From assembly GCF_000306785.1 (NCBI RefSeq), contig NC_017955.1, positions 1,426,001 to 1,490,000 on the forward strand: a stretch of 64,000 nucleotides of DNA, written 5' to 3'. Shown piece by piece: positions 41,271 to 63,996 of the stretch. The translations under genes were made by a program, and so were the position numbers. Position 1 is the first letter of the stretch; every line of letters starts with the position of its first letter. The notes beneath the pieces are model-generated. The model worked only from the letters and a program-made list of their open reading frames with translations. It ran no database searches and was not told the origin of the DNA. The DNA comes from Modestobacter italicus. GTDB taxonomy: Bacteria; Actinomycetota; Actinomycetes; Mycobacteriales; Geodermatophilaceae.

Positions 41271-41876
41271 TCAGCCGGCGAGGTGCCGCCAGCGCCACCC
41301 GTCGGCGGTCCGAGGGTACTGCAGCCGGCGGCTCGCGGAGTCGACGCCGCCGGCCCAGAAGGTCAGCTCCACCGGCTGCAGCCGGTAGCCGACCCAGCTG
41401 GGTGCCTGCGTCCGGAGCGGCCCCACCGGAGCGGCCGCCCACCGGCGGAGGCGTTCGTCGCGGTTCAGCGCGGCCAGCTCGTCGGTGTTGCACCAGGCCA
41501 GCCGGCGCAGGTGGTCCGAGCGGGCGGCCCACGCCGCGGCGACCGACTCCGCGGCATCGGGCACCACCTCCCCGCGCAGCACCAGCTGGCGGGTGAACCC
41601 GGGCCAGAGCACCACCATGCTGGCCCGGGGGAGGGCGGCCAGCTCGGCCACCTTCCGGCTGGCCGCGGAGGTGTGGAAGGCGAACCCGGTCTCGTCGAAC
41701 GCGGTCAGCAGCACGGTGCGGGCGTCCGGGCAGCCGTCGGTCCCCAGCGTCCCGAGGGTCACCTGCGGGCGGTCCGGCTCGTCGTCGGCGGGCAGCCACT
41801 CGCGGGCCAGGGTCAGCGGGTCGGCGGGCGGTGTGCCGTCGGCGTGCAGGTCGAACAGCTCCACCGCCGCGCTCAC
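41271..41876 (-). CDS. Pyridoxamine 5'-phosphate oxidase-like FMN protein
   Basis: The 201-aa split-barrel flavoprotein has the PdxH-type segments CPDARTVLLTAFDETGFAFH (near residue 50), SRKVAEL, and WVGYRLQPVELTFWAGG near 165. It may oxidise pyridoxamine phosphate, or be a recruited FMN oxidase of the catabolic cluster. The GTG overlaps the stop of the FAD-linked oxidase upstream (GTGA, 41873-41876), so the pair is co-translated; that argues for a specialised, not housekeeping, role. Confidence 0.82.
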   Translation of the reverse strand: MSAAVELFDLHADGTPPADPLTLAREWLPADDEPDRPQVTLGTLGTDGCPDARTVLLTAFDETGFAFHTSAASRKVAELAALPRASMVVLWPGFTRQLVLRGEVVPDAAESVAAAWAARSDHLRRLAWCNTDELAALNRDERLRRWAAAPVGPLRTQAPSWVGYRLQPVELTFWAGGVDSASRRLQYPRTADGWRWRHLAG

Positions 41877-43216
41877 GAGACGGCGCCTTTGGTCGGGCCG
41901 GCGTAGTCGGGGTTGAGCTTGCCGGGGTTGAGCAGGCCCTGCGGGTCGGTGCGCCGCGCCGTCTCCACCGTCCGGGCGAGCTGGAAGTCGACGTTCCACT
42001 GGTGCGGGTTGTGCACGCCGACGCCGAGCTCGTTGAGGGCCCGGATGCCGTCGAGCACCTGCTCCGGGCTGCGGTACACACCGGCGAGCATGCCGATCGG
42101 GCCGCTGTGCCCGATCTCCTGGTGCAGCATCCCGCCCTCGTACACGGCGTGCACCTCGTCGATCCGGTCGATCAGCGCGGCGCCGGAGACCTCGAGGTGG
42201 AAGTAGACGCCCGGGGCGCTCTTCTGCAGCCACTCGATGGGGTGGTTGTAGCTGAGCATGCTCAGCGTCAACGCCGTCTGGGCGCCCTCGCGCACGTCCT
42301 CGACCCGGCCGCCACCTGCCTCGACGATCTCGGTGGCCCGGCGCACGGTGCGCTCGTCGGCGATCACCCGGACGCTCGCCCGACCCTCGGGCAGCGCGGG
42401 GTCGGCCGGCAGGGTGGCGGTGATCTCCGGGGTGTCCGCCGAGACCAGCCGGGGGCGCGGCTCCAGCGCGGCGAGGTCGCGCAGCACCGCCTGGGCGCTG
42501 CGGAAGTCCGGGAAGCTGGCGTACAGGCCGCGCCAGTCCTGCAGCGGCTCGAGTCGCACCGTCGCGCGGGCGATGACCCCCGCGGTGCCGTAGTTGTGCA
42601 CGAACAGCTGCGCCTCGTCACCCTCGACGTGCACGAGCTCGGGGGAGCCGGTGCCGTGCACGACGTCCAGCGCCGCGACGAAGCCGGCGTCGTTCGTGCC
42701 GTGCACGATGCTGCCGGTGCCGCCGGACCCGCCGGCCAGGAACCCGCCCACCGACGACTGCGCGGTCGAGGGGTACATCCACAGCTGCTGGCCCGTGGCG
42801 TGCGCGGCCCGCTCCAGGGTCACCATCGGCGTGCCCGCCTCCGCGGTGACGAAGCCGTCGCCGACCTCCACCACCGCCCGCGCCCGGGACAGGTCGAGCA
42901 CCAGGCCGCCGGCCATCGGGATGCCCTGCCCGTAGTTGCCGGTGCCCTTGCCGCGCGGGGTGACCGGGACGCCGTGCCGGACGGCGGCGGCGACGGCCTG
43001 GCCGATCTGCTCCGCCGAGGTCGGGAAGGCGACCAGGTCGGCCAGCCCGAGCGGCAGCAGCTCGCTGATGATGGGGCTCATCCGCGCGCCGTCGACCGAG
43101 GCGCGTTCCCGGGCCCGGGGCTCCGTGCTGACGTTGCGCGCGCCGAGCAGCTCGACCAGCTCGGCCTCCAGGTCGGCGACGGCGGAGGAGGTGGGCGGTG
43201 AGACGGAGAGGGTCAC
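41873..43216 (-). CDS. FAD-linked oxidase (VAO/PCMH type), paralogue A
   Basis: The 447-aa protein has the FAD-binding motif PVTPRGKGTGNYGQGIP near residue 85 and SSVGGFLAGGSGGTGS near 160, followed by a C-terminal cap with GLLNPGKL at the end, all typical of GlcD-type oxidases. It shares clear similarity with the gene at 54196 (GKGTGNYGQ, GGFLAGG-GGTGS, GLLNPGKL). It probably oxidises a hydroxy acid, amine or lactam. It heads a two-gene operon with the PdxH-like protein. A GTTAC-n6-GTGAC site precedes it. Confidence 0.88.
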   Translation of the reverse strand: MTLSVSPPTSSAVADLEAELVELLGARNVSTEPRARERASVDGARMSPIISELLPLGLADLVAFPTSAEQIGQAVAAAVRHGVPVTPRGKGTGNYGQGIPMAGGLVLDLSRARAVVEVGDGFVTAEAGTPMVTLERAAHATGQQLWMYPSTAQSSVGGFLAGGSGGTGSIVHGTNDAGFVAALDVVHGTGSPELVHVEGDEAQLFVHNYGTAGVIARATVRLEPLQDWRGLYASFPDFRSAQAVLRDLAALEPRPRLVSADTPEITATLPADPALPEGRASVRVIADERTVRRATEIVEAGGGRVEDVREGAQTALTLSMLSYNHPIEWLQKSAPGVYFHLEVSGAALIDRIDEVHAVYEGGMLHQEIGHSGPIGMLAGVYRSPEQVLDGIRALNELGVGVHNPHQWNVDFQLARTVETARRTDPQGLLNPGKLNPDYAGPTKGAVS

Positions 43217-43239
43217 GCGGTCGATGGAAACGCGCGGCG

Positions 43240-43255
43240 GTTACGACCGTGTGAC
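43240..43255. promoter_or_regulatory. Candidate GlnR-type half-site pair
   Basis: GTTAC-n6-GTGAC (43240-44, 43251-55) lies 24 bp upstream of the FAD oxidase start and 52 bp upstream of the reductase start. Both half-sites match gTnAc with 11-bp phasing. The same TTAC-n6-GTGAC arrangement occurs at 54126. Confidence 0.4.
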
Positions 43256-43306
43256 CTCTTCGGGTCATCGGCGTCGCGGTGCCGACCGGTGTGCAGAATC
43301 CGGCCG

Positions 43307-44266
43307 GTGAGCTTCTTCTCCGACGTCGAACGCGACCTCGTCGTCGCCGCCCGGACCGACCTCGCCGACGGCGTCGTCGCGCTGGACCTGGTCGCCCACA
43401 ACGACCGCGACCTGCCCGTCTGGACGCCGGGCTCGCACGTCGACGTGCTGCTGCGCCCGGGGCTGGAACGGCAGTACTCGTTGTGCGGCGACACCGCCGA
43501 CCGGTCCCGCTGGCGGATCGCGGTGCTCCGTGAGGAGAGCGGCCGGGGTGGCTCGGTCGCGCTGCACGACGAGGTGGCGGTCGGGCAGCGGCTGCGGGTC
43601 CGCGGGCCGCGCAACCACTTCGCCTTCGAGGTCACCCCGGGCACCCGGTACCGCTTCATCGCCGGCGGCATCGGGATCACCCCGCTGCGCGCGATGGTCG
43701 TCGCCGCCGATGCCGCGGGCGCCGACTGGACGCTGGACTACGCCGGCCGCTCGCGCCGCACGATGGCGTTCGCCGACGAGCTGGCCGGCGCCCACCCGGA
43801 CCGGGTCCGGCTGCACGCCGCGGACGAGGGTGGCCGGCTGGACGCCGTCGCGCTGCTGGCCGAGGCGGGCGCGGACACCGCCGTCTACGTGTGCGGTCCG
43901 ACCCGGCTGATCGACGCGGTGGAGGCCGCCGGCCGGTCGGGGCAGGCGCTGCACACCGAGCGGTTCGAGGCCAAGGAGTTCGGTGAGCCGGTCTGGCCGG
44001 ACCCGTTCGAGGTCGAGCTGGCGCTGTCCGGGGAGACGGTCGTCGTGGAGCCCGGGGTGAGCGTGCTGGACGCCGTCGCCGAGGCCGGCGTCGTGGTGCT
44101 CTCCTCCTGCCGGGTGGGCACCTGCGGGACGTGCGAGACCCCGGTGCTGGAGGGCGAGGTGGAGCACCGGGACTCCGTGCTCACCCCCGCCGAGCAGGCC
44201 GACGACACCGCGATGATGATCTGCGTCTCCCGCGCCGCCGGCCCCCGCCTCGTCCTCGACCTCTGA
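43307..44266 (+). CDS. Oxygenase reductase, phthalate-dioxygenase-reductase type (FMN, NAD, [2Fe-2S])
   Basis: The 319-aa protein has an FMN domain (ERQYSLCGD, about residue 62), an NAD domain (FIAGGIGITPLRAM near 120; VYVCGPTRLIDA near 198) and a C-terminal plant-type ferredoxin (VLSSCRVGTCGTCE near 265, plus C in MMICVSRA). It passes electrons from NADH to a Rieske oxygenase. No oxygenase gene is adjacent; the only one in view is at 52981, 9 kb away, and likely its partner. GTG at 43307 is preferred; 43289 is also in frame. Confidence 0.9.
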   Translation: MSFFSDVERDLVVAARTDLADGVVALDLVAHNDRDLPVWTPGSHVDVLLRPGLERQYSLCGDTADRSRWRIAVLREESGRGGSVALHDEVAVGQRLRVRGPRNHFAFEVTPGTRYRFIAGGIGITPLRAMVVAADAAGADWTLDYAGRSRRTMAFADELAGAHPDRVRLHAADEGGRLDAVALLAEAGADTAVYVCGPTRLIDAVEAAGRSGQALHTERFEAKEFGEPVWPDPFEVELALSGETVVVEPGVSVLDAVAEAGVVVLSSCRVGTCGTCETPVLEGEVEHRDSVLTPAEQADDTAMMICVSRAAGPRLVLDL

Positions 44267-44273
44267 CCCCCTC

Positions 44274-44318
44274 GGGCTCTCGGTACAGGAAGCCCGGGGC
44301 TCTCTGTACCGAGAGCCC
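44274..44318. terminator. Terminator of the reductase gene
   Basis: A 15-bp perfect stem (44274-44288 with 44304-44318) with a 15-nt loop lies 8 nt after the reductase stop. Confidence 0.8.
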
Positions 44319-44329
44319 CCGGGCCGGTT

Positions 44330-44401: not shown

Positions 44402-44414
44402 GGTGCGGCGGGTC

Positions 44415-44441: not shown

Positions 44442-44463
44442 ACGCCTCGGCGACCCTGCGGCG

Positions 44464-45462
44464 GTGACCGCGCCGTCCTGCCCGAAGTCGATGACGCACG
44501 GCCCGTGCGGCGGGGTCGGCGTCGACGGCGGGTGCGAGGCGGCGCCCGGCCCGTGCGTGTTCCTCGGCCGGCCGACCGTGCGGTGGGCCGGGGACGACGT
44601 CCACCCGCCGGCGCCCGAGGCGCCGTTGCTGGCCCTCATGCGGCAGCGGCCGGTGGTGGTCGCCGACCTGCCGGCCGCGCCGCTGTCCCGCGAGTCGCTG
44701 GTGCGCGGTGCCGACGTCCTGGCCGGCAGCGTCGACGCCGTGCTGCTCGGGGACTCCGGCGGCGCCCGCGTGCAGTTCCCGCCGGCGTACCGGGCCGCGC
44801 TCGTGCAGGCGCGGGGGGTGCCGGCCTGGGCGGGGCTCACCTGCCGGGACCGGAACCGGGTGGCGCTGGAGGGCGAGCTCGCGGCGCTGGCCGACACCGG
44901 TGCCGCGGCCGTGCACTGCGTGACCGGCGACCACACCTCGCTCGGCGACCGGCCCGACGCCCGTCCCGTCTTCGACCTGGACTCCACCGAACTGGCCGCC
45001 CGGGCCGCCACGGCCGGGCTGCTGGTCTCGGTCGCCGAGGCGCCGGCCGGACCACCGGTGGCCCAGCGGCCGGAGCGGCTGGCGGAGAAGGTGCGGGCCG
45101 GTGCGCAGGTCTGCGTGGTCAACCACTGCGGGGGTCCGGACGCGGTCGCCGACTTCGTCGCCGCCGCGGTCGCCGCCGGGGCCGACGTGCCGTTCGTGGT
45201 CTGCGTGGCCGTCGCCCTGGACCCGGCCTCGGCGGCCGAGCTGCGGCGCTTCCCGGGCCTGGTGCTGCCGGCGGGCTACCTCGCCTCGATCGAGTCGGCC
45301 CGGGACCCGCACCGGGCCGGGGTCTCCGCCGCGGTCGCGCTCGCCGAGGCCTGCCTGTCCGTCCCCGGGGTGCGCGGCGTCGACCTGTCCGCCGTCGCGC
45401 CACCGGGTCGCGAACTGTCCACGGCCGACGCACTGGCCACGATCGGGAAGGCACTCTCATGA
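44464..45462 (+). CDS. Methylenetetrahydrofolate-reductase-like protein with MetV-like Cys motif
   Basis: The 332-aa protein starts with CPKSMTHGPCGGVG (Cys 6, 15) and GGCEAAPGPC (Cys 24, 31), like the MetV/MTHFR C-terminal cysteine motif, followed by a roughly 270-residue TIM-barrel-like region (AVLLGDSGGARVQFPP, AGLTCRDRNR, HCVTGDH). It thus combines a short metal-binding cap with a MetF-like domain. It might oxidise or reduce folate-bound C1 units released by demethylation. Overlaps the next gene by ATGA. Confidence 0.65.
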   Translation: MTAPSCPKSMTHGPCGGVGVDGGCEAAPGPCVFLGRPTVRWAGDDVHPPAPEAPLLALMRQRPVVVADLPAAPLSRESLVRGADVLAGSVDAVLLGDSGGARVQFPPAYRAALVQARGVPAWAGLTCRDRNRVALEGELAALADTGAAAVHCVTGDHTSLGDRPDARPVFDLDSTELAARAATAGLLVSVAEAPAGPPVAQRPERLAEKVRAGAQVCVVNHCGGPDAVADFVAAAVAAGADVPFVVCVAVALDPASAAELRRFPGLVLPAGYLASIESARDPHRAGVSAAVALAEACLSVPGVRGVDLSAVAPPGRELSTADALATIGKALS

Positions 45463-46703
45463 CCCTGCTGCTCCAGTCGGTCACCGACCTGGACGGCCGG
45501 CGCGTCGACGTCCGCCTCGACGGGGACACCGTCGCGGCGGTCGCCCCCGCGCTGGCCGTCGAGCCCGGCGACGACGTCCTCGACCTCACCGGGCACCTGC
45601 TGCTCCCGGCGCCCGCCGAGCCGCACGCCCACCTGGACAAGGCGCTGACCAGCCACCGGGCGCCCAACCGCACCGGCGACCTGGCCGGGGCGGTGGTCGC
45701 GATCCGGGAGATCGCCGCCGGGTTCACCCACGAGGACCTGGTCGAGCGGGCCACCCGGGCGGCGCACGAGTACCTGGCGAACGGGACGACGGCGATCCGG
45801 ACCCACGCCGACGTCGGTGCGCACTCGGGCACCCGGCACGTCCGCGCGCTGCTGGAGGTGCGCGACGCGCTGGCCGGACTGGTCGACGTGCAGGTGGTCG
45901 CCCTGGCCTCCTCGCCGTGGTCGCCGGCGGAGGCCGTCGGCAACGCGCGCCTGCTGGAGGAGGCGGTCGAGCTGGGCGTGGACCTGGTGGGCGGTGCGCC
46001 GCACATGTGGGACGACCGCGACGCGGGGCTGCAGCTGTCCTTCGACGCCGCCGTCCGGCACGGGCTGCCGCTGGACCTGCACACCGACGAGACGCTGGAC
46101 CCCACCGCGCAGGGGTTGCTGGCGCTGGCCCGGCGGGTGCTGTCCACCGGCTTCGCCCAGGGGGCGACCGCGAGCCACTGCGTGAGCCTGGGCGTGCACC
46201 CGCTGGAGGTCGCCCGCGCGACGGCGGCCGAGGTCGCCCGCGCCGGGGTCGGCGTGGTCGCGCTGCCGCAGACCAACCTCTACCTGCAGGGCCGGGACGT
46301 CGAGGTGGCCCGGCCCCGGGGGCTGACCGCCGTCCGGGCGCTGCTCGACGCCGGGGCGACCCTCGGCGCCGGCGGGGACAACCTGCGCGACCCGTTCAAC
46401 CCGATGGGCCGGGCCGACGCCTGCGAGGCCGCCTCGCTGCTGGTCACCTCCGGCCACCTGTCCACCCGCGAGGCGTGGACGGCGGTCAGCGCCGGGGCGC
46501 GGGCCTGCATGGGGCTGCCGGTGCCGGCGGTCGCCGTCGGCTCGGTGGCCGAGTTCGTGGCGATCGAGGCGGAGAGCCTGGACGCCGCGGTGGCCGGGGC
46601 CGGCACCGCCCGGACGGTCCTCTCGCGGGGCCGGGTCGTCGCCTCCAGCCGGGTGACGCGGGCGGTCAACGGTCCGGTCCCGTCCGCTGTGGCCAACTCG
46701 TGA
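45459..46703 (+). CDS. Cytosine-deaminase-like amidohydrolase
   Basis: The 414-aa amidohydrolase has the cytosine deaminase layout: PAEPHAHLDKALTS near residue 55 (HxH), LDLHTDETLD near 205, ASHCVSLGVHP near 240 and AGGDNLRDPFNPMG near 305. Metal and catalytic residues appear intact. Relatives deaminate or hydrolyse N-heterocycles such as cytosine, creatinine analogues or triazines. The ATG overlaps the folate-enzyme gene, so both are one unit. It is followed by the ABC transporter, whose promoter overlaps the end of this gene. Confidence 0.85.
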   Translation: MTLLLQSVTDLDGRRVDVRLDGDTVAAVAPALAVEPGDDVLDLTGHLLLPAPAEPHAHLDKALTSHRAPNRTGDLAGAVVAIREIAAGFTHEDLVERATRAAHEYLANGTTAIRTHADVGAHSGTRHVRALLEVRDALAGLVDVQVVALASSPWSPAEAVGNARLLEEAVELGVDLVGGAPHMWDDRDAGLQLSFDAAVRHGLPLDLHTDETLDPTAQGLLALARRVLSTGFAQGATASHCVSLGVHPLEVARATAAEVARAGVGVVALPQTNLYLQGRDVEVARPRGLTAVRALLDAGATLGAGGDNLRDPFNPMGRADACEAASLLVTSGHLSTREAWTAVSAGARACMGLPVPAVAVGSVAEFVAIEAESLDAAVAGAGTARTVLSRGRVVASSRVTRAVNGPVPSAVANS

Positions 46704-46821: not shown

Positions 46822-47595
46822 ATGAGCACGCTCGCGCCCACCGTCCCGGCCACCGCCACCCGCGCGCGGGTCCTGCACTTCCGCGACGTCGCCAAGGCCT
46901 TCCCGGACGGGACGGTCGCCCTCGAGGGGGTGGACCTGGACATCCGCCGCGGTGAGTTCGTCACCGTCGTCGGCCCGTCCGGCTGCGGGAAGAGCACCCT
47001 GCTGCGGATCGCCTCGGGCCTGTCCCCGGCCACCGGCGGGGAGGTCGAGATCGAGGCGGCCCGGATCGGCTACGTCTTCCAGGACGCCACCCTGCTGCCC
47101 TGGCGCTCGGTGCTGAAGAACGTGCAGCTGCTGGCCGAGCTGCACGGCATGAGCAAGACCGCGACGAACCAGGCCTCCCGGGACGCCATCGACCTGGTGG
47201 GCCTGGCCGGCCACGAGAAGAAGCTGCCGCGGGCGCTGTCGGGCGGCATGAAGATGCGCGCCTCGCTGGCCCGCTCGCTCACCCTCGACCCGGACCTGTT
47301 CCTCTTCGACGAGCCGTTCGGCGCGCTGGACGAGATCACCCGCGAGCGCCTCAACGACGAGCTGATCCGGCTCTTCCATGCCAAGGGCTTCGGCGCGCTG
47401 TTCATCACCCACTCGGTGAGCGAGGCCGTCTACATGTCGACCCGGGTGATGGTCATGAGCGGCCGGCCCGGTCACATCGTCGACACCTTCGAGGTCCCGT
47501 TCGGCGCCGACCGCACCCCGGAGCTGCGCTTCACCCCCGAGTTCGCCGCGCTGGCCGGTCAGGTCTCGCACGCCCTGCGGGCGGGTCACTCGTGA
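46822..47595 (+). CDS. ABC transporter ATPase (nitrate/sulfonate/pyrimidine-precursor type)
   Basis: The 257-aa ATPase has Walker A GPSGCGKST near residue 52, signature LSGGMKMR near 143 and Walker B LFLFDEPFGALDE near 165. Its sequence is close to the SsuB/TauB/ThiZ group. It energises the permease encoded next, which overlaps its stop (GTGA, 47592-47595). ATG at 46822 with GGGAGC upstream. The associated binding protein is encoded at 50164 after an oxidoreductase. Confidence 0.92.
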   Translation: MSTLAPTVPATATRARVLHFRDVAKAFPDGTVALEGVDLDIRRGEFVTVVGPSGCGKSTLLRIASGLSPATGGEVEIEAARIGYVFQDATLLPWRSVLKNVQLLAELHGMSKTATNQASRDAIDLVGLAGHEKKLPRALSGGMKMRASLARSLTLDPDLFLFDEPFGALDEITRERLNDELIRLFHAKGFGALFITHSVSEAVYMSTRVMVMSGRPGHIVDTFEVPFGADRTPELRFTPEFAALAGQVSHALRAGHS

Positions 47596-48533
47596 CCACC
47601 CTGGACAACCGCGCGGCCAGCTCCGCGCCCGACTCGGAGGAGCCCGCCGTGGCGACCACCGCCGTGACGACCACCGCGGAGACACCGGCCCCGGTGGCCG
47701 CGAGCGGTGCGGGCACCGCCCCGCTGGTCCGCCGGCGGCGCGGACGCAAGCGGCTGACCGACGCGCTGCTGCCGATCGGCGTCTTCGTGGTGCTGCTGGG
47801 CATCTGGTACGCGATCACCTACCTGGTGCTGGACCCCGCCCGGCGGTTCCTGATGCCGGCGCCGCACACGATCATCACCGACGCCCTGCTCGACGGGCCG
47901 ACGATGGAGAAGATCGGCGAGGCCCTCGGCCGCACCATCACGGTCACCTTCGTCGGCCTGGTCATCGCGATCGTGATCGGCATGGCCTGGGCGATCGCGA
48001 TGAGCCAGAGCCGGACGGTCGAGCGCTCGCTGTTCCCCTACGCCGTCGCGCTGCAGTGCGTCCCGATCCTCGCCCTCGTGCCGCTCATCGGGTTCTGGTT
48101 CGACTACGGCTTCAGCTCGCGGGTGATCGTCTGCGTGATGATCGCGCTGTTCCCGGTCGTGTCGAACACGCTGTTCGGCCTGCAGTCGGTCGACCGGGGC
48201 ATGCACGAGCTGTTCGACCTGCACGGCGCCGGCCGGCTCACCCGGCTGCTCAAGCTGCAGCTGCCGGCCGCCATGCCGGCCATCTTCGCCGGGTTCCGCA
48301 TCTCCGCCGGGCTCTCGGTGGTCGGCGCGATCGTCGGTGACCTCTTCTTCCGCAAGGGCAACCCGGGCCTGGGCGTGCTGCTGAACAACTTCAGCTCGCG
48401 GCTGCAGGGCGCCGAGCTGTTCCTCACGATCATCGTGGCCGCCGCCCTCGGCATCGCCGTCTTCGCGCTCTTCGGCTGGCTCGGCAAGCTCGCCGTCGGC
48501 CGCTGGTACGACCAGAGCCGCGACGCCGCATGA
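47592..48533 (+). CDS. ABC transporter permease (SsuC/TauC/ThiX-like)
   Basis: The 313-aa protein has an Ala/Thr-rich N-terminal tail of about 55 residues, then six membrane segments. The coupling segment ELFDLHGAGRLTRLLKLQLPAAMPAIFAGFR (from about residue 207; written here in part as motif) contains the typical EAA-like region. It forms the channel for the importer. The GTG overlaps the ATPase stop, and its stop overlaps the next start (ATGA). Confidence 0.9.
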   Translation: MTTLDNRAASSAPDSEEPAVATTAVTTTAETPAPVAASGAGTAPLVRRRRGRKRLTDALLPIGVFVVLLGIWYAITYLVLDPARRFLMPAPHTIITDALLDGPTMEKIGEALGRTITVTFVGLVIAIVIGMAWAIAMSQSRTVERSLFPYAVALQCVPILALVPLIGFWFDYGFSSRVIVCVMIALFPVVSNTLFGLQSVDRGMHELFDLHGAGRLTRLLKLQLPAAMPAIFAGFRISAGLSVVGAIVGDLFFRKGNPGLGVLLNNFSSRLQGAELFLTIIVAAALGIAVFALFGWLGKLAVGRWYDQSRDAA

Positions 48534-49912: not shown

Positions 49913-49920
49913 GCCGGCCG

Positions 49921-52906: not shown

Positions 52907-52931
52907 GACCGGACGATGCCGGGACCACGTT

Positions 52932-52963
52932 GCGGCCCGGTGACGGTCAGGTCACCGGGCCGC
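52932..52963. terminator. Hairpin between Rieske gene and amidohydrolase
   Basis: A 13-bp perfect stem (52932-52944 with 52951-52963) with a 6-nt loop lies 17 nt after the Rieske stop and 26 nt before the amidohydrolase start. It may attenuate rather than end the operon. Confidence 0.6.
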
Positions 52964-54039: not shown

Positions 54040-54125
54040 CGGGGTGTCCTTCCCTCCCCGGGTCGCTCGCGCCATCCGCGCGACCTCGGGCACCGGCGAG
54101 GCTGCCCGGCGGGGGTGTCGCCGCC

Positions 54126-54141: not shown

Positions 54142-54195
54142 GAGTCGTCTCGCGCTGCTCATCCCGGGGAAATGCCGGCACGCCACGGTGTCCGG

Positions 54196-55485: not shown

Positions 55486-55530
55486 GTGGAGTGCCACGGC
55501 GCGGAGAACGCGCCCGTGGCACTCCACTCA
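55483..55530. terminator. Convergent terminator whose stem includes both stop codons
   Basis: A 17-bp perfect stem (55483-55499 with 55514-55530) carries the stop TGA of the plus-strand oxidase at its left end and the TCA stop of the minus-strand gene at its right end. Confidence 0.85.
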
Positions 55531-57099
55531 CGCCGCGGCGCGGGCGCCGTGCCGGCGCAGCACCACCGACGCGGCGTTGCGGCCCGACGCGCCCCACACA
55601 CCGGCGCCGGGGAACGTGCCGGCGCCGGTGAGGAACAGCCCGCGCACCGGCGTCTCGTAGCGGGTGAGCTCGCGGTCCCGGCCCAGCAGTGCGGCCAGCG
55701 GGCCGCCGGCGAAGGAGGGGGCGTAGCCGCGGGTCATGCCGAAGTCGCGCTCGTAGTCCTCCGGGGTCACCACCCGCCAGCGCCGGACCCCGTCGAGGAA
55801 GCCCGGCTCGACCTGGGCGGCGTAGGCCGTCAGCCAGCGCTGCGGTTCGGTCGAGGAGGCCCAGCCGCCGGGCAGCGAGTACGGCGTCCACAGCACCTCG
55901 AGGCTGAACACGTGGTCGTCGCCGACCGCCATCGTCGGGTCCAGCACCGAGGGCGTGTTGACCAGCAGCATGGGCCGTGGCGCGACGCGCCCCTCCGGCA
56001 GCAGGGCGTGCGCAGCGGCGATCTCGGTCAGCGGGGGAGCGATCGTGGTGGTGGGCACGTGCTGGTCGAACGGCCCGGTGGCGGCCAGCAGCGCGTCGTC
56101 GACCTGCGGCAGCCGGGGCAGCCGGGAGACCACCGCGTCGATCTTCGACTCGTAGCCGTCCGGCGTCGGGCGCGCCGCCCACCGGGCGGTCATCGCGGCG
56201 GCGCCGGACGGCGGGGAGCCGAGCCAGTCGACCAGGGCCTGCCGCGGGTCGACGGCGCAGACCACCGCGGGCGCCTCGACCACCTCCCCGGTGCTCAGCC
56301 GCACGCCGCGCACGCCGGGGCCCTCGACGAGCACCTCGGCGACCCGGGCCCCGGTGCGCACCCGGCCGCCGGCCGCGACCAGGGCCGCGTGCACCGCCGC
56401 GGGCAGGGCGCCCGACCCCCCGACCGGGCGACCGATCCCGACCAGGTGCCGCATCGCGAGGCCGGTGGCCCCCAGCCCGGTGCCCGGGGTGCCGGCGGTC
56501 ACGCCCCACACGGCCGGGCCGGTGGTGAAGGCACCGGCGACGAGCGACTCGTCGGTCAGGTACCGCTGCAGCACGGCGCCCACGCTGCGCCGGGACCAGT
56601 CCAGCAGCCGGGGCAGCGCGGTGGCCCGCCGGTCGGCCAGCCGGCGCAGCACCGCGCCCGGGGTGGGCGGGGCCGAGGTCAGCTCCACCAGCAGCCGGGC
56701 CACCGGGAGGGCGTCGGCGAGGTAGCGGCGGTAGCCGTCGACCTGGGTCGGGTGGGTGACGGCGAGGGCGTCGATGGTCCGGTCGACGTCCCGGAACTGG
56801 ACGAACGGTGCGGCGCCGGGGGAGTCCCAGGAGACGTGCAGGGCCTGCGGGTCGACGTCGAGGTAGCTCAGCCCGTGGGCGGCGAGGTCGAGCTCGTCGG
56901 CGATGGCCGTGGTGCGGACCATGGTGTGGTCGCAGTTGCACACGTTGACCCGGGCGCCGTCCAGCGCGTCGACGGTGGACGCGCATCCGCCGGTGGTGCC
57001 GCGTGCCTCGAGCACCACGACGTCCAGCCCGGCACGGGCCAGGTAGGCGGCGCACACCAGCCCGTTGTGCCCGCCGCCGACCACGATGACGTCTGCCAC
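55528..57099 (-). CDS. Phytoene-desaturase-like FAD-dependent oxidoreductase
   Basis: The 523-aa protein begins DVIVVGGGHNGLVCAAYLAR (dinucleotide-binding) and has the motif GLFLTGAGTFPGAGVWGASG near 495, as in CrtI-like and related FAD oxidoreductases. Carotenoid genes are absent, so its neighbours suggest another role, for example desaturating or oxidising a cluster metabolite. GTG start; its stop lies inside the convergent terminator. Six nt separate it from the formamidase gene upstream. Confidence 0.85.
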   Translation of the reverse strand: MADVIVVGGGHNGLVCAAYLARAGLDVVVLEARGTTGGCASTVDALDGARVNVCNCDHTMVRTTAIADELDLAAHGLSYLDVDPQALHVSWDSPGAAPFVQFRDVDRTIDALAVTHPTQVDGYRRYLADALPVARLLVELTSAPPTPGAVLRRLADRRATALPRLLDWSRRSVGAVLQRYLTDESLVAGAFTTGPAVWGVTAGTPGTGLGATGLAMRHLVGIGRPVGGSGALPAAVHAALVAAGGRVRTGARVAEVLVEGPGVRGVRLSTGEVVEAPAVVCAVDPRQALVDWLGSPPSGAAAMTARWAARPTPDGYESKIDAVVSRLPRLPQVDDALLAATGPFDQHVPTTTIAPPLTEIAAAHALLPEGRVAPRPMLLVNTPSVLDPTMAVGDDHVFSLEVLWTPYSLPGGWASSTEPQRWLTAYAAQVEPGFLDGVRRWRVVTPEDYERDFGMTRGYAPSFAGGPLAALLGRDRELTRYETPVRGLFLTGAGTFPGAGVWGASGRNAASVVLRRHGARAAA

Positions 57100-57105
57100 G
57101 CCGGC

Positions 57106-58218
57106 TCAGCCGCCGAACAGGGCGGCCGGTCGGTCACCGGTCACCTCGCGGAGGTCCGCCTTGCGGATGGCGGCGTGCACCCCGGCGACGACGTCGACGA
57201 CCTGGGACACCGAGAAGTCCACGGCGGCGGACAGGTAGGCCAGCGACGTCGCCCGGTCGACGTCGAAGCCGTGCTGCATCAGGCCCAGCGCCCGGCGCAC
57301 GCAGTCCCGCATCGCCTCGCCGAGGTCCTCGTCGAGGCCGATCGGCACCCACAGCTGCGGTGTCTCGCCGAGCGGCAGCAGCTCGGCGATGCCGGGACGC
57401 AGGTCGGCAGCCCGGGTGGAGGTGATCCGCAGGGTCGCCCGCAGCGGTGCCTCGAAGGCGGTGAGCGCCACCTCGCCGTCGCCCATCGCGTAGTGCGGGT
57501 CGCCCACGTGCACCCCGGCGCCAGGCACCTGCACGCGCAGGTGCAGCCGGCTGCCCACGCCGAGCACCGAGACGTCGAGGTTGCCGCCGTGCCGGCCGGG
57601 CGGGGTCGAGTGCAGCCGGCCCGGGGTGGCCACCCCCACCAACCCGAGGAAGGGGCGCAGCGGGAACCGGAGCGAGCGGCCGGGGCGTCCGGGCACCCCG
57701 ATCACGCCCTCGTCGCCGTCCACCGTCGCGAAGACGCTGACCGTGCCGGGGACCACGGGCAGCTCGCCGGGGAGCGCGCCCTTGCCGTGCCGGTTGGAGA
57801 TGACGCCGTACCCGGCGCGCAGCTGCAGGTCGAGCACCTCCACGGTCACCACGTCGCCCGGCTCGGCACCCCGGACGGCGATCGGCCCGGTCACCACGTG
57901 CGGGCCGCCCTCGCTGCCCGCCGGCCGCAGCCCCGACGCCGCGATGGCCACCGCGTCGCCGAGCACGTCGGCGGCGGCCACCCCGTGCCCGCCGAAGAAG
58001 GCCACCGGGTCGCGGCCCTGGTCCTCGAGCACGCCCTCGTGGCTGACGGTGTCGACGACGACGGTGTCCCCGGGGTCGATGGTCAGCACCGGCCGGTCCT
58101 CGGCGCCGGGCAGCCAGCCCCAGGAGGCGGTCTCCGGTGTCGTCGGCAGGTACCGCGCCCGGGGGTCGAGTGCCTCGCCGGGCTGGAGCGGGCCGGGTGC
58201 CCGCTGCGTGGTGGTCAT
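57106..58218 (-). CDS. Acetamidase/formamidase
   Basis: The 370-aa protein matches the acetamidase/formamidase family by YGVISNRHGKGALPGE, VHVGDPHYAMGDGEVALTA and AAVDFSVSQVVDVVAGVHA. The catalytic metal-binding set was not checked residue by residue. It hydrolyses formamide, acetamide or other short amides to ammonia and acid. The ATG at 58218 is preferred; a GTG about 33 nt upstream falls in the candidate GlnR box. It is likely co-transcribed with the CrtI-like gene. Confidence 0.88.
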   Translation of the reverse strand: MTTTQRAPGPLQPGEALDPRARYLPTTPETASWGWLPGAEDRPVLTIDPGDTVVVDTVSHEGVLEDQGRDPVAFFGGHGVAAADVLGDAVAIAASGLRPAGSEGGPHVVTGPIAVRGAEPGDVVTVEVLDLQLRAGYGVISNRHGKGALPGELPVVPGTVSVFATVDGDEGVIGVPGRPGRSLRFPLRPFLGLVGVATPGRLHSTPPGRHGGNLDVSVLGVGSRLHLRVQVPGAGVHVGDPHYAMGDGEVALTAFEAPLRATLRITSTRAADLRPGIAELLPLGETPQLWVPIGLDEDLGEAMRDCVRRALGLMQHGFDVDRATSLAYLSAAVDFSVSQVVDVVAGVHAAIRKADLREVTGDRPAALFGG

Positions 58219-58241
58219 GGCCGCGACGGTGGCCGAGTCCG

Positions 58242-58279
58242 GTGTCACGGCGGTCCGGCGCTCGTGAACATCGTGTGTC
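58242..58279 (-). promoter_or_regulatory. Candidate GlnR box with four phased half-sites
   Basis: On the minus strand, AC dinucleotides recur at exact 11-bp steps (GACAC, TTCAC, CGGAC, GACAC; AC-n9 four times). The box lies 24-61 bp upstream of the formamidase start and 93-130 bp upstream of the divergent amidase. Confidence 0.55.
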
Positions 58280-58371: not shown

Positions 58372-59856
58372 GTGCGCCACGTCGTCGACGACGGCCGGGC
58401 CGTCGCACCCCGGTCGCTCGCCGGGCGGGACGGGACCGGCCTGCTGGCCGAGCTGGCGGAGGGATCGGTCTCGGCGGAGGAGCTGCTCGAGGAGCACGTC
58501 CGGCTGCTCACCGGCCCGGGCAGCGCGCTGGGCGCGGTCGTCGACGCGGACGTGCCGGCGGCCCGGCGGGCCGCGGCGGAGGTCGATCGCCGTCGGGCCC
58601 GCGGCGAGCAGCTGCCGGCCCTGGCCGGCCTGCCGGTGACGATCAAGGACAGCTTCGACGCGGCGGGCCTGCGGACCTCCCACGGCCGGCTGTCCGACGC
58701 CCGGCCGGCCACCGTCGACGCACCGCTGGTGCGCCGGGTGCGGGCGGCCGGCGCGGTGGTGCTGGGCAAGACCAGCGTGCCGGTGTACCTCGACGACCAC
58801 CAGGCGTCGACCGAGCTGGGCACCGCGCGCAACCCGCACGACCTCGACCGCACCCCGGGTGGCTCCTCCAGCGGTGCCGGTGCCGCGGTCGCGGCGGGGT
58901 TGTCGGTGGCGGACTTCGGCAGCGACCTCGCCGGGTCCCTGCGGGTGCCCAGCGCCTGGTGCGGGCTCTTCGGCCACCGGCCCAGCAACGGCATCGTCTC
59001 CAAGCTGGGGCACATGCCGTGGCCGCAGGGCGGGCTGCTGGAGCCCGCGGTCTCCTCGGTCGGGCCGATGGTGCGCTCGGCGCGCGACCTGGAGCTGTTC
59101 CTCGACGTCCTGGTCGGGGTGGAGGGTCCGGCCACACGGGCCTGGCGGCTGGAGCTGCCGCCGCCGTCGGTCGACGCACTGGACCAGGTGCGGGTGGCGG
59201 TGTGGCTCGACGACCCTGCGGCGCCGGTCGACGCGGAGACCCGCGCCGCGCTGACCGGCTTCGCCGACCGGCTCGCCGACGCCGGCTGCCGGGTCGAGGA
59301 GCTGACCGACGCCCCGGTCGCCGGTCAGGCGGCGCTGGACCTGTTCACCCGGCTGCAGGCCGGGGAGGTCGTGCACGGGCTGGACGAGGCGGCGTGGCAG
59401 GCCAGCCGGGAGCTGGCGGCCCGGGCCGGGGACGAGCCCGACGTGCTGGCGGCCCGCCGGTCCGTGCAGACGCTGCGGGACGCGCTCGACGACCGGGAGG
59501 ACCAGTGGGCGACGGTGACCCGCTGGGACCGGGTCTTCGACCGGGTCGACGTCGTCCTCTGCCCGGCCGTGCCGTGCGCCGCGCCCGCGCTGTCCGACGT
59601 GCCGGCGTCCCGGCGGACGCTGGAGCTCGACGGGCGGGTGCTGCCGGCTGCGGACACGGTCTGGGCGTGGAGCCGGCTCACCGGCATCGGCATGGGCCCG
59701 GCCACCGTCGCCCCGGTCGGTCGGGGCGCCCGGTCGGGGCTGCCGATCGGGGCGCAGCTGCTCGGCCGGTACCTCGACGACCGCACCCCGCTGCGGGTCG
59801 CGGCCCTGCTCGAGGAGGCCGGGGTGCTCCGGTTCGAGCCCCCCGCGGGGTGGTGA
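58372..59856 (+). CDS. Amidase (amidase signature family)
   Basis: The 494-aa amidase has the Lys of VTIKDSFD near residue 90, the Gly/Ser-rich GGSSSGAGAAVAAG near 163 and the nucleophile segment GSDLAGSLRVP near 185, giving the Ser-cisSer-Lys triad. It hydrolyses amides to ammonia plus acid, in keeping with the cluster. GTG at 58372 with GGGGAAGGGG about 7 nt upstream. Its stop converges with the next amidohydrolase. Substrate range cannot be told. Confidence 0.9.
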   Translation: MRHVVDDGRAVAPRSLAGRDGTGLLAELAEGSVSAEELLEEHVRLLTGPGSALGAVVDADVPAARRAAAEVDRRRARGEQLPALAGLPVTIKDSFDAAGLRTSHGRLSDARPATVDAPLVRRVRAAGAVVLGKTSVPVYLDDHQASTELGTARNPHDLDRTPGGSSSGAGAAVAAGLSVADFGSDLAGSLRVPSAWCGLFGHRPSNGIVSKLGHMPWPQGGLLEPAVSSVGPMVRSARDLELFLDVLVGVEGPATRAWRLELPPPSVDALDQVRVAVWLDDPAAPVDAETRAALTGFADRLADAGCRVEELTDAPVAGQAALDLFTRLQAGEVVHGLDEAAWQASRELAARAGDEPDVLAARRSVQTLRDALDDREDQWATVTRWDRVFDRVDVVLCPAVPCAAPALSDVPASRRTLELDGRVLPAADTVWAWSRLTGIGMGPATVAPVGRGARSGLPIGAQLLGRYLDDRTPLRVAALLEEAGVLRFEPPAGW

Positions 59857-59868
59857 GCGCCGGCCGGG

Positions 59869-61176: not shown

Positions 61177-61219
61177 GCCGGGGACCCTGGCAGCCCCGTG
61201 TTCCGCGCAGGTGACGCCT

Positions 61220-61246
61220 GGAACGCGGCCGTCACCGGAGCGCAAC
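61220..61246 (+). promoter_or_regulatory. Candidate GlnR box upstream of creatininase
   Basis: GGAAC-n6-GTCAC-n6-GCAAC is a close match to the GAAAC/GTNAC alternation with correct spacing. It ends 24 bp before the creatininase start and lies 44-70 bp upstream of the divergent amidohydrolase start, a better place for activation of the latter. Confidence 0.6.
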
Positions 61247-61269
61247 GACCGGCACCTAGCGTCCGCCGG

Positions 61270-62046
61270 GTGACCGCCCGACTGCTCACCGAGCTCACCG
61301 CCCCCGCCCTCACCGCAGCCCTCGGGCCGGACAGCGTCATCGTGCTGCCGACCGGCGCGCTGGAGCAGCACGGCCCGCACCTGCCGGTGGCCACCGACCT
61401 GATCACCGCGCAGACCCTGGCCGAGCTGGCCGTCGAGCAGTTCGGCGACGAGCTGGACCTGTGGCTGCTGCCGCCGCTGGCCTACACCAAGTCCAACGAG
61501 CACGCCTGGTCCTCGGGCACCTTCTGGCTGTCCGCGGCGACGCTGACCGCGGTGCTGTTCGACATCGCCCGCTGCGTGGCGAAGACCCCGGCCCGCCGGC
61601 TGGCCTTCCTCAACGGGCACGGCGGGAACTCCGCGCTGCTCCAGGTCGCCGCCCGGGACATCCGGCTGGAGACCGGGCTGCGCACCTTCACCATGCACCC
61701 CGCGCTGCCGGCCGACCACGGTGGCGAGAGCCCGGCCGACGAGCTGGGCATGGGCGTCCACGGCGGGCTGGAGGAGACCTCGCTGATGCTCCACCTGCGT
61801 CCCGAGCTGGTCGACATGTCCCAGGCCGAGCGCTGGGTGCCCGAGCACCTCGACGAGTACAAGCACGTCCGCTTCGGCGGCACCGTCTCCTTCGGCTGGA
61901 CGTCGGACGAGTTCGGCCCGGCCGGGGTGATCGGCGACGCGAGCCAGGCCACCGCGGCCCGCGGCGAGGAGCGGACCAAGGCGATGGTCGCCTACCTCGG
62001 TGAGGCCTTCGCCGAGGTCGCCCGGTTCGACCCCGCGCCGCGATGA
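61270..62046 (+). CDS. Creatininase family amidohydrolase
   Basis: The 258-aa protein shows the creatininase metal set: E and H in GALEQHGPHLP (about residue 30), D in VATDL, H in NGHGGNSALL near 118 and E in HGGLEETSLML near 166. Members open cyclic amides such as creatinine, or act on other lactams. GTG start; the ATG of the next gene overlaps its stop (ATGA at 62043-62046). First gene of a four-gene operon. Confidence 0.88.
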   Translation: MTARLLTELTAPALTAALGPDSVIVLPTGALEQHGPHLPVATDLITAQTLAELAVEQFGDELDLWLLPPLAYTKSNEHAWSSGTFWLSAATLTAVLFDIARCVAKTPARRLAFLNGHGGNSALLQVAARDIRLETGLRTFTMHPALPADHGGESPADELGMGVHGGLEETSLMLHLRPELVDMSQAERWVPEHLDEYKHVRFGGTVSFGWTSDEFGPAGVIGDASQATAARGEERTKAMVAYLGEAFAEVARFDPAPR

Positions 62047-62789
62047 CCGGGCGGCTCACCGGCCGCCGGGTGGTGGTCACCGGAGCCGCCCGCGGCATCG
62101 GGGCCGAGATCGCCCGCACCTTCGCCGCCGAGGGCGCCCGGCTGGCACTCCTGGACCGGCTGGCCGACGAGGTCGGTGCGGTGGCCGCCGAGGTGGGCGG
62201 CCGGGGGTACGCCGTCGACCTCGCCGACGTGGCGGCCACCCGGGAGGTCACCGGGAAGGCGATCGCCGAGCTGGGCGGCGTGGACGTGCTGGTCAACAAC
62301 GCCGGGATCCTGCGGCTCACCCCGCTGCTGGAGATCGACCCGGCCGAGTGGGACGAGGTGTTCGCGGTGAACACCCGGGCGATGCTGGTGACCACGCAGG
62401 TCGCCGTCCGGGCGATGACCGCCGACCCGGGCCGGGGCGTCCGCAAGATCGTCAACATGGCGAGCATGGGCGGCAAGGCCGGTGGCGGGGGCCAGGCGCA
62501 CTACGCGGCGTCCAAGGCCGCCGTCATCGCGCTGACCCGGGCCGCCGCCGCGGAGCTCGGCCCGCTGGGCATCACCGTCAACTGCCTGTGCCCGGGGTTC
62601 GTGCTCACCGAGATGGGTGCCGGCACCCGCACCGAGGACGACGTCGCGGCCTGGTCCGCGCTCTCCCCGCTCGGCCGGCTCGGCGAACCCCGGGACGTCG
62701 CCCGCGCGGCGCTGTTCCTCGCCTGCGAGGACTCGGACTACCTCACCGGCGACGCGCTCAACGTGACCGGCGGGATGATCACGCATTGA
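62043..62789 (+). CDS. Short-chain dehydrogenase/reductase
   Basis: A classical SDR of 248 aa with GAARGIGAEIA near residue 15, NNAGI near 88, Ser in VNMASMGG near 140 and YAASK near 155, which complete the catalytic set. It oxidises or reduces a hydroxyl/keto group using NAD(P). Its stop overlaps the next gene (TTGA), and its context suggests a step after ring opening. Confidence 0.9.
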   Translation: MTGRLTGRRVVVTGAARGIGAEIARTFAAEGARLALLDRLADEVGAVAAEVGGRGYAVDLADVAATREVTGKAIAELGGVDVLVNNAGILRLTPLLEIDPAEWDEVFAVNTRAMLVTTQVAVRAMTADPGRGVRKIVNMASMGGKAGGGGQAHYAASKAAVIALTRAAAAELGPLGITVNCLCPGFVLTEMGAGTRTEDDVAAWSALSPLGRLGEPRDVARAALFLACEDSDYLTGDALNVTGGMITH

Positions 62790-63529
62790 CCGGACGCAAC
62801 AGCTGGGGTCTGGGCCCCGACGCGGTCGACCTGCGCCGGCCGCCGCAGCCGGCACGCCCGGTGGAGCTCGCCGCGCTGCCGCAGCGGCTGACCGTGGACC
62901 TCGCCCGCACCGCGGTCGTCGTGGTCGACATGCAGAACGACTTCTGCGCTCCCGACGGGTGGCTCGCCTCGAGCGGCGTCGACGTCTCGGCTGCCGCCGC
63001 GCCGGCTGCGGCCCTGGAGCGGGCGCTGCCCCGGCTGCGCGGCTCGGGGGTCCCGGTGGTCTGGCTGAACTGGGGCAACCGGCCCGACCGGGCGAACCTG
63101 CCGCCCGGTGTCCGGCACGTCTACGACCCCGACGGCGCGAGCACCGGCATCGGCGACCCGCTGCCCAACGGCTCGCACGTGCTGGAGCTGGGCTCCTGGT
63201 CGGCCGCGGTGGTCGACGGGCTCACCGTCGACCCGGGCGACCTGCACGTGGCCAAGTACCGGATGAGCGGCTTCTGGGACACCCCGCTGGACTCGGTGCT
63301 GCGCAACCTGCGGGTCGACACCCTGCTGTTCGCCGGGGTCAACGTCGACCAGTGCGTGCTGGCCACGCTCGTCGACGCCGCCTGCCTCGGCTACGACGTC
63401 GTGCTGGTCGAGGACCTGTGCGGCACCACCTCCCCGGAGTTCTGCACCGAGGCGACGGTCTACAACGTGCGCCAGTGCTTCGGCTTCACCACCACCTCGG
63501 CCGAGCTGCTCGCCGGCCTCCCTGCCTGA
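62786..63529 (+). CDS. Isochorismatase-family amidohydrolase (RutB/biuret hydrolase-like)
   Basis: The 247-aa protein has the Asp in VVVDMQNDF near residue 46, Lys in HVAKYRMSGFWDTPLDSVLR near 155 and Cys in VNVDQCVLATL near 190. The motif block KYRMSGFWDTPLDSVLRNL and TEATVYNVRQCFGF resembles RutB (ureidoacrylate amidohydrolase) and biuret hydrolases, so it probably cleaves a carbamoyl or ureido group, giving CO2 and NH3. It starts with TTG overlapping the SDR stop (62786-62789), since no ATG or GTG fits. Confidence 0.87.
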   Translation: MTGRNSWGLGPDAVDLRRPPQPARPVELAALPQRLTVDLARTAVVVVDMQNDFCAPDGWLASSGVDVSAAAAPAAALERALPRLRGSGVPVVWLNWGNRPDRANLPPGVRHVYDPDGASTGIGDPLPNGSHVLELGSWSAAVVDGLTVDPGDLHVAKYRMSGFWDTPLDSVLRNLRVDTLLFAGVNVDQCVLATLVDAACLGYDVVLVEDLCGTTSPEFCTEATVYNVRQCFGFTTTSAELLAGLPA

Positions 63530-63558
63530 CCCTCCGACCCACCCGCAAGGAGCCCCCC

Positions 63559-63996
63559 ATGGCCGCTGCACCCGTCGTCAAGTCGCTGGCGGAGATCACC
63601 CCGCACTACATCGGCGAGAACCGCACCGTGCGGCTCGCCGTGCTGTCCGGCCCCGCCGACGGGTCCAGCACCACCGTCGTCCTGGAGATCTGGGAGCCGG
63701 GTGGCTCCCAGCCGGACAACTCGCACGAGGAGTCGACGGAGACCTTCGTGGTCCTGCAGGGGACGGCGCGGGCGCACAGCGACGAGCACGTCGCGGACCT
63801 GGTGGCCGGCAACGTCATCGTGCTGCCGGCCACCTCGGTGCACCACATCGTCAACTCCTCGCCGACCGAGCGGCTGTACACGATCACGGTGATGGAGAAC
63901 GACGGCGGCTTCGCTGACCTGATCCTCACCGGCCCGGAGGCGTTCCTGGACGACGCGGACGCCGCCGTGCTGGGCGCCGTCCTCACCGGGGTCTGA
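63559..63996 (+). CDS. Cupin protein, last gene of the creatininase operon
   Basis: A single-domain cupin of 145 aa, with motif 1 QPDNSHEESTETFVVLQG near residue 52 and GNVIVLPATSVHHIVN near 86, giving His/Glu metal ligands. ATG at 63559 with AAGGAG 6 nt upstream; 29 nt after the isochorismatase stop. It could be a cyclase, an oxygenase of the last intermediate, or a ligand-binding accessory protein. The frame ends 4 bp before the window edge. Confidence 0.85.
   Translation: MAAAPVVKSLAEITPHYIGENRTVRLAVLSGPADGSSTTVVLEIWEPGGSQPDNSHEESTETFVVLQGTARAHSDEHVADLVAGNVIVLPATSVHHIVNSSPTERLYTITVMENDGGFADLILTGPEAFLDDADAAVLGAVLTGV

Follow-up and report, generated by a model that had tools for sequence, protein, structure and literature searches.

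A stretch of 64,000 nucleotides from the single 5.58-Mb contig of Modestobacter italicus (NC_017955.1, positions 1,426,001–1,490,000; hereafter, the window) carries a gene island rich in hydrolases and oxygenases predicted to act on C–N bonds, together with an ABC importer. We read this island as a modular nitrogen-scavenging locus whose core would import, deaminate and oxidatively open a pteridine, i.e., a pterin- or folate-type ring, and give this reading a probability of about 0.6. It was reached because the flavoenzymes of the island are related to PDB entry 6v42 and because the same core is found in proteobacterial gene clusters. That the gene set is a conserved catabolic unit, and not a chance assembly, is near certain, since three of its genes share an identical phyletic pattern (21 of 112 genomes). 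An earlier note on this DNA had found no described pathway to match the island. This was too pessimistic: the core resembles a proteobacterial cluster that holds a 6v42-type flavin oxygenase of folate catabolism.

Flavoenzymes and the Proteobacterial Counterpart

For all three flavoenzymes of the island (FADox1–3), the top solved relative, by sequence and by fold, was 6v42. The title of this entry describes a "flavin oxygenase ... involved in folate catabolism", and its function is taken here from that title. FADox3 was 34% identical to a flavoenzyme from Rhizobium, which in turn scored 719 bits over 458 residues against 6v42 and is evidently its orthologue.

A plasmid search with the substrate-binding protein of the window gave one link, to Nitratireductor sp. 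OM-1, while searches with the FADox2 and CodA-like proteins of the window gave none at E 1e-30 and 1e-40. The OM-1 plasmid encodes a creatininase, a CodA-like protein, an FAD-binding oxidoreductase, an importer, a Rid protein and a Rieske oxygenase with its ferredoxin and reductase. Its CodA-like protein and its flavoenzyme each led to 136 plasmid records, 109 of them named Rhizobium in either case, and nine further annotated proteobacterial plasmid regions were picked from those two lists and read. The importer, the CodA-like amidohydrolase and the 6v42-type oxygenase occurred together in all nine (the importer ATPase of Leisingera was unannotated, but present by tblastn). Creatininase and RidA were each found in eight of the nine, both being missing in Haematobacter, so that RidA was present in 9 of the 10 proteobacterial regions read. 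The core of importer, CodA-like protein, 6v42-type oxygenase and creatininase was thus carried on plasmids of Nitratireductor, Rhizobium, Palleronia, Comamonadaceae, Roseateles, Pantoea, Leisingera, Paroceanicella and Agrobacterium.

The window has the CodA-like deaminase, the ABC importer and the creatininase linked in the same way, as judged from the layout and from BLAST against the Rhizobium, Palleronia and OM-1 proteins. Identities between window and proteobacterial proteins were 28–35% for the flavoenzymes, 27–33% for the CodA-like proteins and 32–39% for the creatininases. The binding proteins of Rhizobium, Agrobacterium, Palleronia and Pantoea belong to the NMT1/THI5 family, whereas those of OM-1 and the window had no such match. 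The NMT1-type importer of the earlier note is present as an ABC importer related to the NMT1 type, but its binding protein did not match the NMT1 profile even at E 0.1. Unlike the proteobacterial clusters, the island lacks both RidA and the small NAD(P)H reductase, carrying a PDR/VanB-type reductase instead (the Pantoea cluster shows the same replacement), as well as two or three flavoenzyme paralogues. It also has genes beyond the proteobacterial set: the Rieske oxygenase, an MTHFR-like protein, a CrtO-like enzyme, two additional amidohydrolases (AmHy1 and AmHy2), an isochorismatase-fold hydrolase, AtzH–AtzE-type proteins (AtzHE), FmdA and an amidase, along with GlnR-type promoter boxes.

Co-Occurrence and Modular Make-Up

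The family sample comprised 112 genomes of Geodermatophilaceae, searched at cutoffs of E 1e-10 for the binding protein and 1e-60 for both the CodA-like protein and the creatininase. These three proteins were found in an identical set of 21 genomes and in none of the others. In 19 of the 21, a single contig held all three genes inside 17 kb; in the remaining two (G096 and G082), they were on separate contigs of fragmented assemblies that were about 70% complete. The distribution was patchy, with only 8 of 23 genomes of the window's own genus carrying the core. FADox1 was found in 19 and the Rieske oxygenase in 12 of the 112 genomes, all inside the 21, and the isochorismatase-like protein in 13, of which 12 were inside the 21 and one was a partial match in a fragmented assembly.

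In a wider sample of the phylum, the binding protein was found in 18 of 396 genomes, including its own, and the surrounding regions were read in 16 of the other 17. Seven of these (L075, L076, L077, L078, L081, L083 and L091) had CodA-like and creatininase matches of at least 45% identity. Six of the seven had a CrtO-like gene but lacked FADox1 and the Rieske oxygenase, and L076 had the FADox1–PDR set.

Tabulating the best tblastn matches of at least 45% identity suggests four modules: (i) the core of importer, CodA-like protein and creatininase; (ii) a PNPOx-like protein, FADox1, the PDR reductase, AmHy1 and AmHy2; (iii) the Rieske oxygenase, the MTHFR-like protein and a block of isochorismatase, cupin, AtzHE, FmdA and amidase; and (iv) the CrtO-like enzyme, an LLM-type monooxygenase and an SDR oxidoreductase. 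FADox1 and the PDR reductase occurred together in 17 distinct genomes, including the window, the reductase being present in all 16 other FADox1 loci. Eleven of the 17 loci (L076, L096–L101, L103–L105 and L118) had no Rieske oxygenase; nine of these belong to the family, and their genomes gave no Rieske match at E 1e-60; the Galbitalea genome (L118) encodes a Rieske oxygenase at a different locus (L014). Since the reductase tracks FADox1, often in loci that lack the Rieske oxygenase, it most likely serves the flavoenzyme, and is the probable electron donor of FADox1. Perhaps it feeds the Rieske oxygenase too, a partnership that the same presence table weakens.

The NtaA/DmoA-family monooxygenase is a passenger private to this genome. 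NtaA proteins were found in nine of the 112 genomes, including its own, but the other eight were 36–48% identical and lay outside the cluster; three of those genomes carry the core, with NtaA on another contig. The other loci gave no match of 45% or above, and one of 26% (L095).

The earlier note was thus right in describing a unit concerned with nitrogen and with a C–N-rich heterocycle. Its single complete 22-kb route did not hold up, however, there being a constant core with modules that come and go, and it overlooked the substrate clue offered by the flavoenzymes and the MTHFR-like gene.

The CodA-like Protein as a Candidate Pterin Deaminase

The active site of the window CodA-like protein is complete. 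HLDK and DN motifs were common to the window protein and all 16 aligned cluster proteins; the corresponding E. coli CodA motifs are HLDT and DD. In a tree, the six actinobacterial rows (98/99) and the ten proteobacterial rows (96/98) formed two groups; E. coli CodA had a long branch, and the branching order of the three was left open.

According to the excerpted text of PMC9513972, the pterin deaminase of Variovorax sp. F1 has 399 residues and is 37.0% identical to Arad3529 of Agrobacterium radiobacter, and in V. paradoxus, a conserved "endoribonuclease" gene lies downstream of the pterin deaminase. The window protein is likewise an amidohydrolase of about 400 residues. RidA proteins fall in the endoribonuclease L-PSP family, and the Pantoea cluster shares both length and neighbor with the Variovorax system, its deaminase having 399 residues and an adjoining RidA gene. 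The Comamonadaceae deaminase is 36% identical to that of Rhizobium. The cluster deaminases fit the described pterin deaminase in part, with putative orthology suggested by size, neighboring gene and identity values.

GlnR-type Boxes

The excerpted text of PMC3087709 gives the GlnR consensus as gTnAc-n6-GaAAc and GTnAC-n6-GTnAC. The pattern GTNAC-n6-GNAAC matched the window exactly four times, where 0.76 matches were expected, and none of 100 shuffled sequences reached that number. All four were intergenic, in island gaps that make up 5.7% of the island. Genome-wide, there were 52 exact boxes and 11 for the reversed control, and the Poisson chance of at least four boxes in 22.7 kb was 7e-5.

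The promoter boxes were shared among relatives. The divergent FADox1/PDR promoter contained an exact box in all 15 distinct genomes, including the window, in which the two genes adjoin, and the box columns appeared by eye to be better kept than their flanks. At the AmHy2/creatininase promoter, 16 of 18 distinct genomes, including the window, had at least one exact box, and the other two had a box with one mismatch. Loci in which the genes are not neighbors were excluded from these counts (L076 and L118 for FADox1/PDR; L076, L095 and L118 for AmHy2/creatininase), L012 and L131, which are one genome, were counted once, and some promoter borders were extrapolated from tblastn ends. The box-bearing genomes are related and are not independent trials. 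A nitrogen role of the locus is likely, and GlnR probably switches its transcription on under nitrogen shortage.

A Proposed Route for Pteridine Breakdown

In the proposed scheme, the ABC importer would take up a pteridine, and the CodA-like enzyme would strip its 2-amino group, converting pterin to lumazine and ammonia. One or more 6v42-type flavin oxygenases, fed by the PDR reductase, would then oxidize and open the ring, and hydrolases of the creatininase, amidase, RutB, AtzE and FmdA families would break the amide and ureide pieces down to ammonia and carbon dioxide. Where the cluster is of the long kind, the MTHFR-like protein and the NdmA/SxtT-like Rieske oxygenase would handle substituted, e.g., N-methylated, forms, and GlnR would turn on transcription when nitrogen is short. 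The substrate, the order of the steps and the action of GlnR are what we infer here; gene content, intact frames, the cross-phylum core, co-occurrence and conserved boxes were observed.

A more ambitious version, which we put forward tentatively and consider doubtful, is a complete, GlnR-switched actinobacterial route that mineralizes the folate pteridine ring, including that of C1-substituted folates. Here the Rieske oxygenase and the MTHFR-like protein would remove the methyl group, the CodA-like enzyme would deaminate, the paralogous 6v42-type oxygenases would open both rings, and the AtzE/RutB/FmdA set would release the remaining nitrogens. In that case, folate would count among the ordinary nitrogen sources of soil, with one core cluster reaching from Rhizobium plasmids to Geodermatophilaceae.

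For the fate of folate and free pterins past the first two enzymes, the excerpted text of PMC9513972 leaves a question open: can bacteria break down the pteroic acid that accumulates and its deaminated form, and if so, how? Our literature search found no paper describing a ring-opening gene set for folate or pterin, PMC9513972 alone being relevant. If the pteridine reading is right, importer, deaminase, ring-opening flavoenzyme and hydrolases would be named at once across Proteobacteria and Actinomycetota, and the pathway would be directly testable.

Several observations weigh against the pteridine reading. The function of 6v42 rests on its title, and the literature search found no paper bearing the entry code. 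The flavoenzyme tree grouped FADox1 with FADox2 (96/94), and left FADox3 and the root unresolved. The low identity to the proteobacterial set may mean that the substrate has shifted. Two RidA proteins gave no match at E 1e-6 in the window, in L004 and L005, or in the remaining actinobacterial loci, and a homologue of the small NAD(P)H reductase was likewise not found in the actinobacterial loci. The Variovorax system differs in that no carboxypeptidase G was noticed in the island, although no search was aimed at it. The Pantoea deaminase is only 28% identical to that of Rhizobium, the Comamonadaceae deaminase has 451 residues and no adjoining RidA, and the pterin deaminase comparison was made on size, neighbor and identity values. 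Nine of the 16 phylum loci had no CodA-like or creatininase match of at least 45%, so the importer family extends beyond the cluster; some of these were short contigs, and two had weaker CodA-like matches (L086, 39%; L087, 34%). As for nitrogen control, the window showed no excess of one-mismatch boxes (27 against an expected 27.1), no exact box was present in the G066 core locus (L095), and amtB had one-mismatch boxes only, two of them, at some 160 and 200 bases upstream of the match to the ammonium transporter. In Proteobacteria, which are not expected to have GlnR, seven of the ten loci held eight exact matches between them, all inside annotated genes, so a single match means little alone.

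Alternative Explanations

The earlier note had held that the island would be a chance assembly if relatives showed neither co-occurrence nor a shared nitrogen response. On sequence evidence, both the co-occurrence and the conserved GlnR-type boxes turned this test in favor of a unit. Genes for C–N hydrolases are common in actinobacteria, and NtaA is indeed a passenger, yet a chance neighborhood is refuted by the co-occurrence of three genes in the same 21 of 112 genomes; the core that recurs in Alpha-, Beta- and Gammaproteobacteria and in Actinomycetota and the shared promoter boxes also speak for a unit, leaving chance hardly credible. Utilization of creatinine or hydantoin would account for the creatininase-family protein, and the CodA-like family includes creatinine deaminase. 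However, the creatininase equivalog scored 98 of the 235 bits of its cutoff, no creatinase or hydantoinase was among the best matches of the scanned island genes, and the oxygenases and importer would be left unexplained, which makes this explanation very improbable.

A locus of the same kind might act on another bicyclic N-heterocycle, e.g., a purine or xanthine carrying N-methyl groups, with the Rieske oxygenase demethylating it and the deaminases and flavoenzymes opening it. By profile, the closest solved structures to the Rieske oxygenase were SxtDIOX (163 bits), SxtT (153), NdmA (138) and NdmB (124), which act on purine-like or guanidine-rich substrates; AmHy1 and AmHy2 are near 8-oxoguanine deaminase and TrzN, and xanthine-dehydrogenase-type genes lie near several loci. 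Set against this, just 12 of the 21 core genomes in the family have the Rieske oxygenase, so the core runs without it, and the core flavoenzyme family points to folate; we regard such a substrate as unlikely. The locus could also be a mosaic, in which the importer, CodA-like protein, creatininase, flavoenzyme and PDR reductase serve one ring, while the Rieske/MTHFR pair and the isochorismatase–cupin–AtzHE–FmdA–amidase block are separate routes for related compounds. The 11 FADox1–PDR loci without a Rieske oxygenase fit this arrangement, as do G066 and G080, where the Rieske oxygenase and the isochorismatase–cupin–AtzHE block lie elsewhere in the genome, apart from the core. But the 21 core genomes include all 12 that have the Rieske oxygenase and 12 of the 13 that have the isochorismatase, so these genes accompany the core even where they are physically unlinked, and a mosaic, while possible, is the less probable arrangement.

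Relation to Other Known Systems

Like the caffeine N-demethylases NdmA and NdmB, the island combines an oxygenase of the Rieske family with an NAD-linked reductase nearby. The Rieske oxygenase is distant from them, however, with NdmA ranking after SxtDIOX and SxtT, the reductase tracks the flavoenzyme, and NdmC, NdmD and NdmE were not among the profile matches of island genes. The Rut pyrimidine pathway shares an isochorismatase-fold RutB-like hydrolase and nearby LLM monooxygenases, but RutB scored 132 of 378 bits and NtaA 54 of 498 bits for RutA, falling short of RutA and RutB orthologues. With the s-triazine pathway (TrzN, AtzE, BiuH), the island shares the TrzN-like AmHy2, the AtzH–AtzE-type amidase and the BiuH-like hydrolase (108 of 370 bits). 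AtzD and AtzF equivalogs were not among the matches of the scanned island genes, and AmHy2 differs at metal and catalytic positions. By alignment with CodA, AmHy2 retains HxH and the later His, but Gln replaces the third metal-binding His (Q220) and Ser the catalytic Asp (S307). Because both substitutions are invariant in the eight aligned orthologues, including the window, AmHy2 may catalyze a reaction other than ordinary deamination.

Gene Content and Extent of the Island

Profile searches recovered every enzyme named in the earlier note, each inside 41271–63996: the Rieske/VanA_C oxygenase, the PDR-type reductase, NtaA, the creatininase, the importer, two FAD_binding_4 oxidases, the RutB/BiuH-like isochorismatase, FmdA, the amidase and the amidohydrolases (CodA-like, TrzN-/8-oxoguanine-deaminase-like and PRK08204-like). 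The families were correct, but the specific names were not borne out, RutB, creatininase and 8-oxoguanine deaminase (260 of 532 bits) all being under curated cutoffs. Since nearly all equivalog scores fell under these cutoffs, names are used here at the level of family, not reaction. The MTHFR-like, PNPOx-like, SDR and cupin genes and the third FAD enzyme (CrtO-like) were absent from that note.

The gene set is intact and larger than noted, spanning about 38.5–67.3 kb in window numbering. Past the window, the block continues with an AtzH–AtzE-type amidase, FADox3 and a VOC protein (genome positions 1490001–1493341; L004, 4001–7341). Its G+C content is uniform, and the block is not set apart by base composition.

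Table 1. Genes and promoter boxes of the island, in window coordinates.
Feature	Position	Strand	Basis or remark
LLM-type flavin monooxygenase	38490..39542	+	Bac_luciferase 98 bits; PNPOx neighbor in relatives
PNPOx-like flavoprotein	41271..41876	-	PNPOx_N (on longer frame); PhzG/PdxH-like under cutoff
FADox1, VAO-fold flavoenzyme of 6v42 family	41873..43216	-	phmmer 6v42 E 2e-44; FAD_binding_4
GlnR-type box, FADox1/PDR divergent promoter	43240..43255	-	exact match
PDR/VanB-type NAD-FAD-2Fe2S reductase	43289..44266	+	Fer2 and NAD_binding_1
Short MTHFR-like protein, N-terminal CPKSM.HGPCGG...C motif	44464..45462	+	PF02219 34 bits
CodA-like amidohydrolase, proposed pterin deaminase	45459..46703	+	catalytic HxH, H, E, H, D kept
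ABC importer ATPase (NtrC/TauB type)	46822..47595	+	profile match; 64% identical to Nitratireductor OM-1
ABC importer permease	47592..48533	+	profile match
NtaA/DmoA-family FMN monooxygenase, passenger	48530..49912	+	TIGR03860 449 bits, cutoff 279.7
Substrate-binding lipoprotein of importer	50164..51333	+	homologous to NMT1-type Rhizobium protein, E 9e-12
AmHy1, COG0402-type amidohydrolase	51539..52906	-	profile matches; metal ligands kept
GlnR-type box upstream of AmHy1	52929..52944	-	exact match, intergenic
Rieske non-haem iron oxygenase, NdmA/SxtT-like	52981..54093	-	solved relatives SxtDIOX, SxtT, NdmA, NdmB
FADox2, second 6v42-family flavoenzyme	54172..55485	+	
CrtO/amine-oxidase-like FAD enzyme	55528..57099	-	Amino_oxidase 63 bits; CrtO 189 bits, under cutoff
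FmdA/AmdA-family amidase	57106..58248	-	PF03069
Amidase-signature hydrolase	58372..59856	+	PF01425 250 bits (on longer frame)
AmHy2, TrzN-like amidohydrolase, substituted metal/catalytic residues	59869..61176	-	TrzN 212 bits
Two GlnR-type boxes, AmHy2/creatininase divergent promoter	61200-61215, 61231-61246	-, +	exact matches
Creatininase-family amidohydrolase	61270..62046	+	PF02633 217 bits (on longer frame)
SDR oxidoreductase	62043..62789	+	profile match
Isochorismatase-fold hydrolase, RutB/BiuH-like	62786..63529	+	PF00857 130 bits; RutB 132 of 378 bits
Cupin	63559..63996	+	profile match; locus continues beyond

Orthologues of the MTHFR-like protein, 49–86% identical, were found in long clusters, Trebonia and Galbitalea. 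The CrtO-like gene occurred in long clusters and other classes, and was absent from G106 (L092); in G084 (L133, 4944–6440), it was split into two tblastn pieces, reflecting decay or sequencing error. The same two explanations apply to a TGA inside the CodA-like match of G093 (C1:265819-267042).

Outside the island lies another member of the binding protein's family, with 44% identity (G000:C1:810947-812044; L089). A profile search of the PDB with the binding protein returned noise only, and a structure model from seven alignment rows (pLDDT 39) was not used. An M20 peptidase encoded next to the binding protein in L075 was considered as a carboxypeptidase G and rejected, since it scores as an allantoate amidohydrolase/carbamoylase.

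Klebsiella pneumoniae plasmids (records H88 and H89) carry a 6v42-type flavoenzyme, 39% identical. The Rhizobium operon has xanthine-dehydrogenase-type genes at its flanks; within the best eight matches per query, molybdenum hydroxylase genes of this type were also found in L009 (about 1150–4820, near a lone Rieske oxygenase), L076, L081, L083, L084, L091, L100 and L118.

The LLM gene, a conserved neighbor, is cut off from the rest of the island by a transposase open reading frame (39623–40975, plus strand; ISH6-like, 194 bits, under the cutoff of 240) that lies between it and the PNPOx-like gene. LLM orthologues, 77–91% identical, are found beside the cluster in G106 (L093), G079 (L102) and G078 (L131). 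The PNPOx-like gene adjoins FADox1 in short clusters, and the LLM and PNPOx genes are directly adjacent in L102 and L131.

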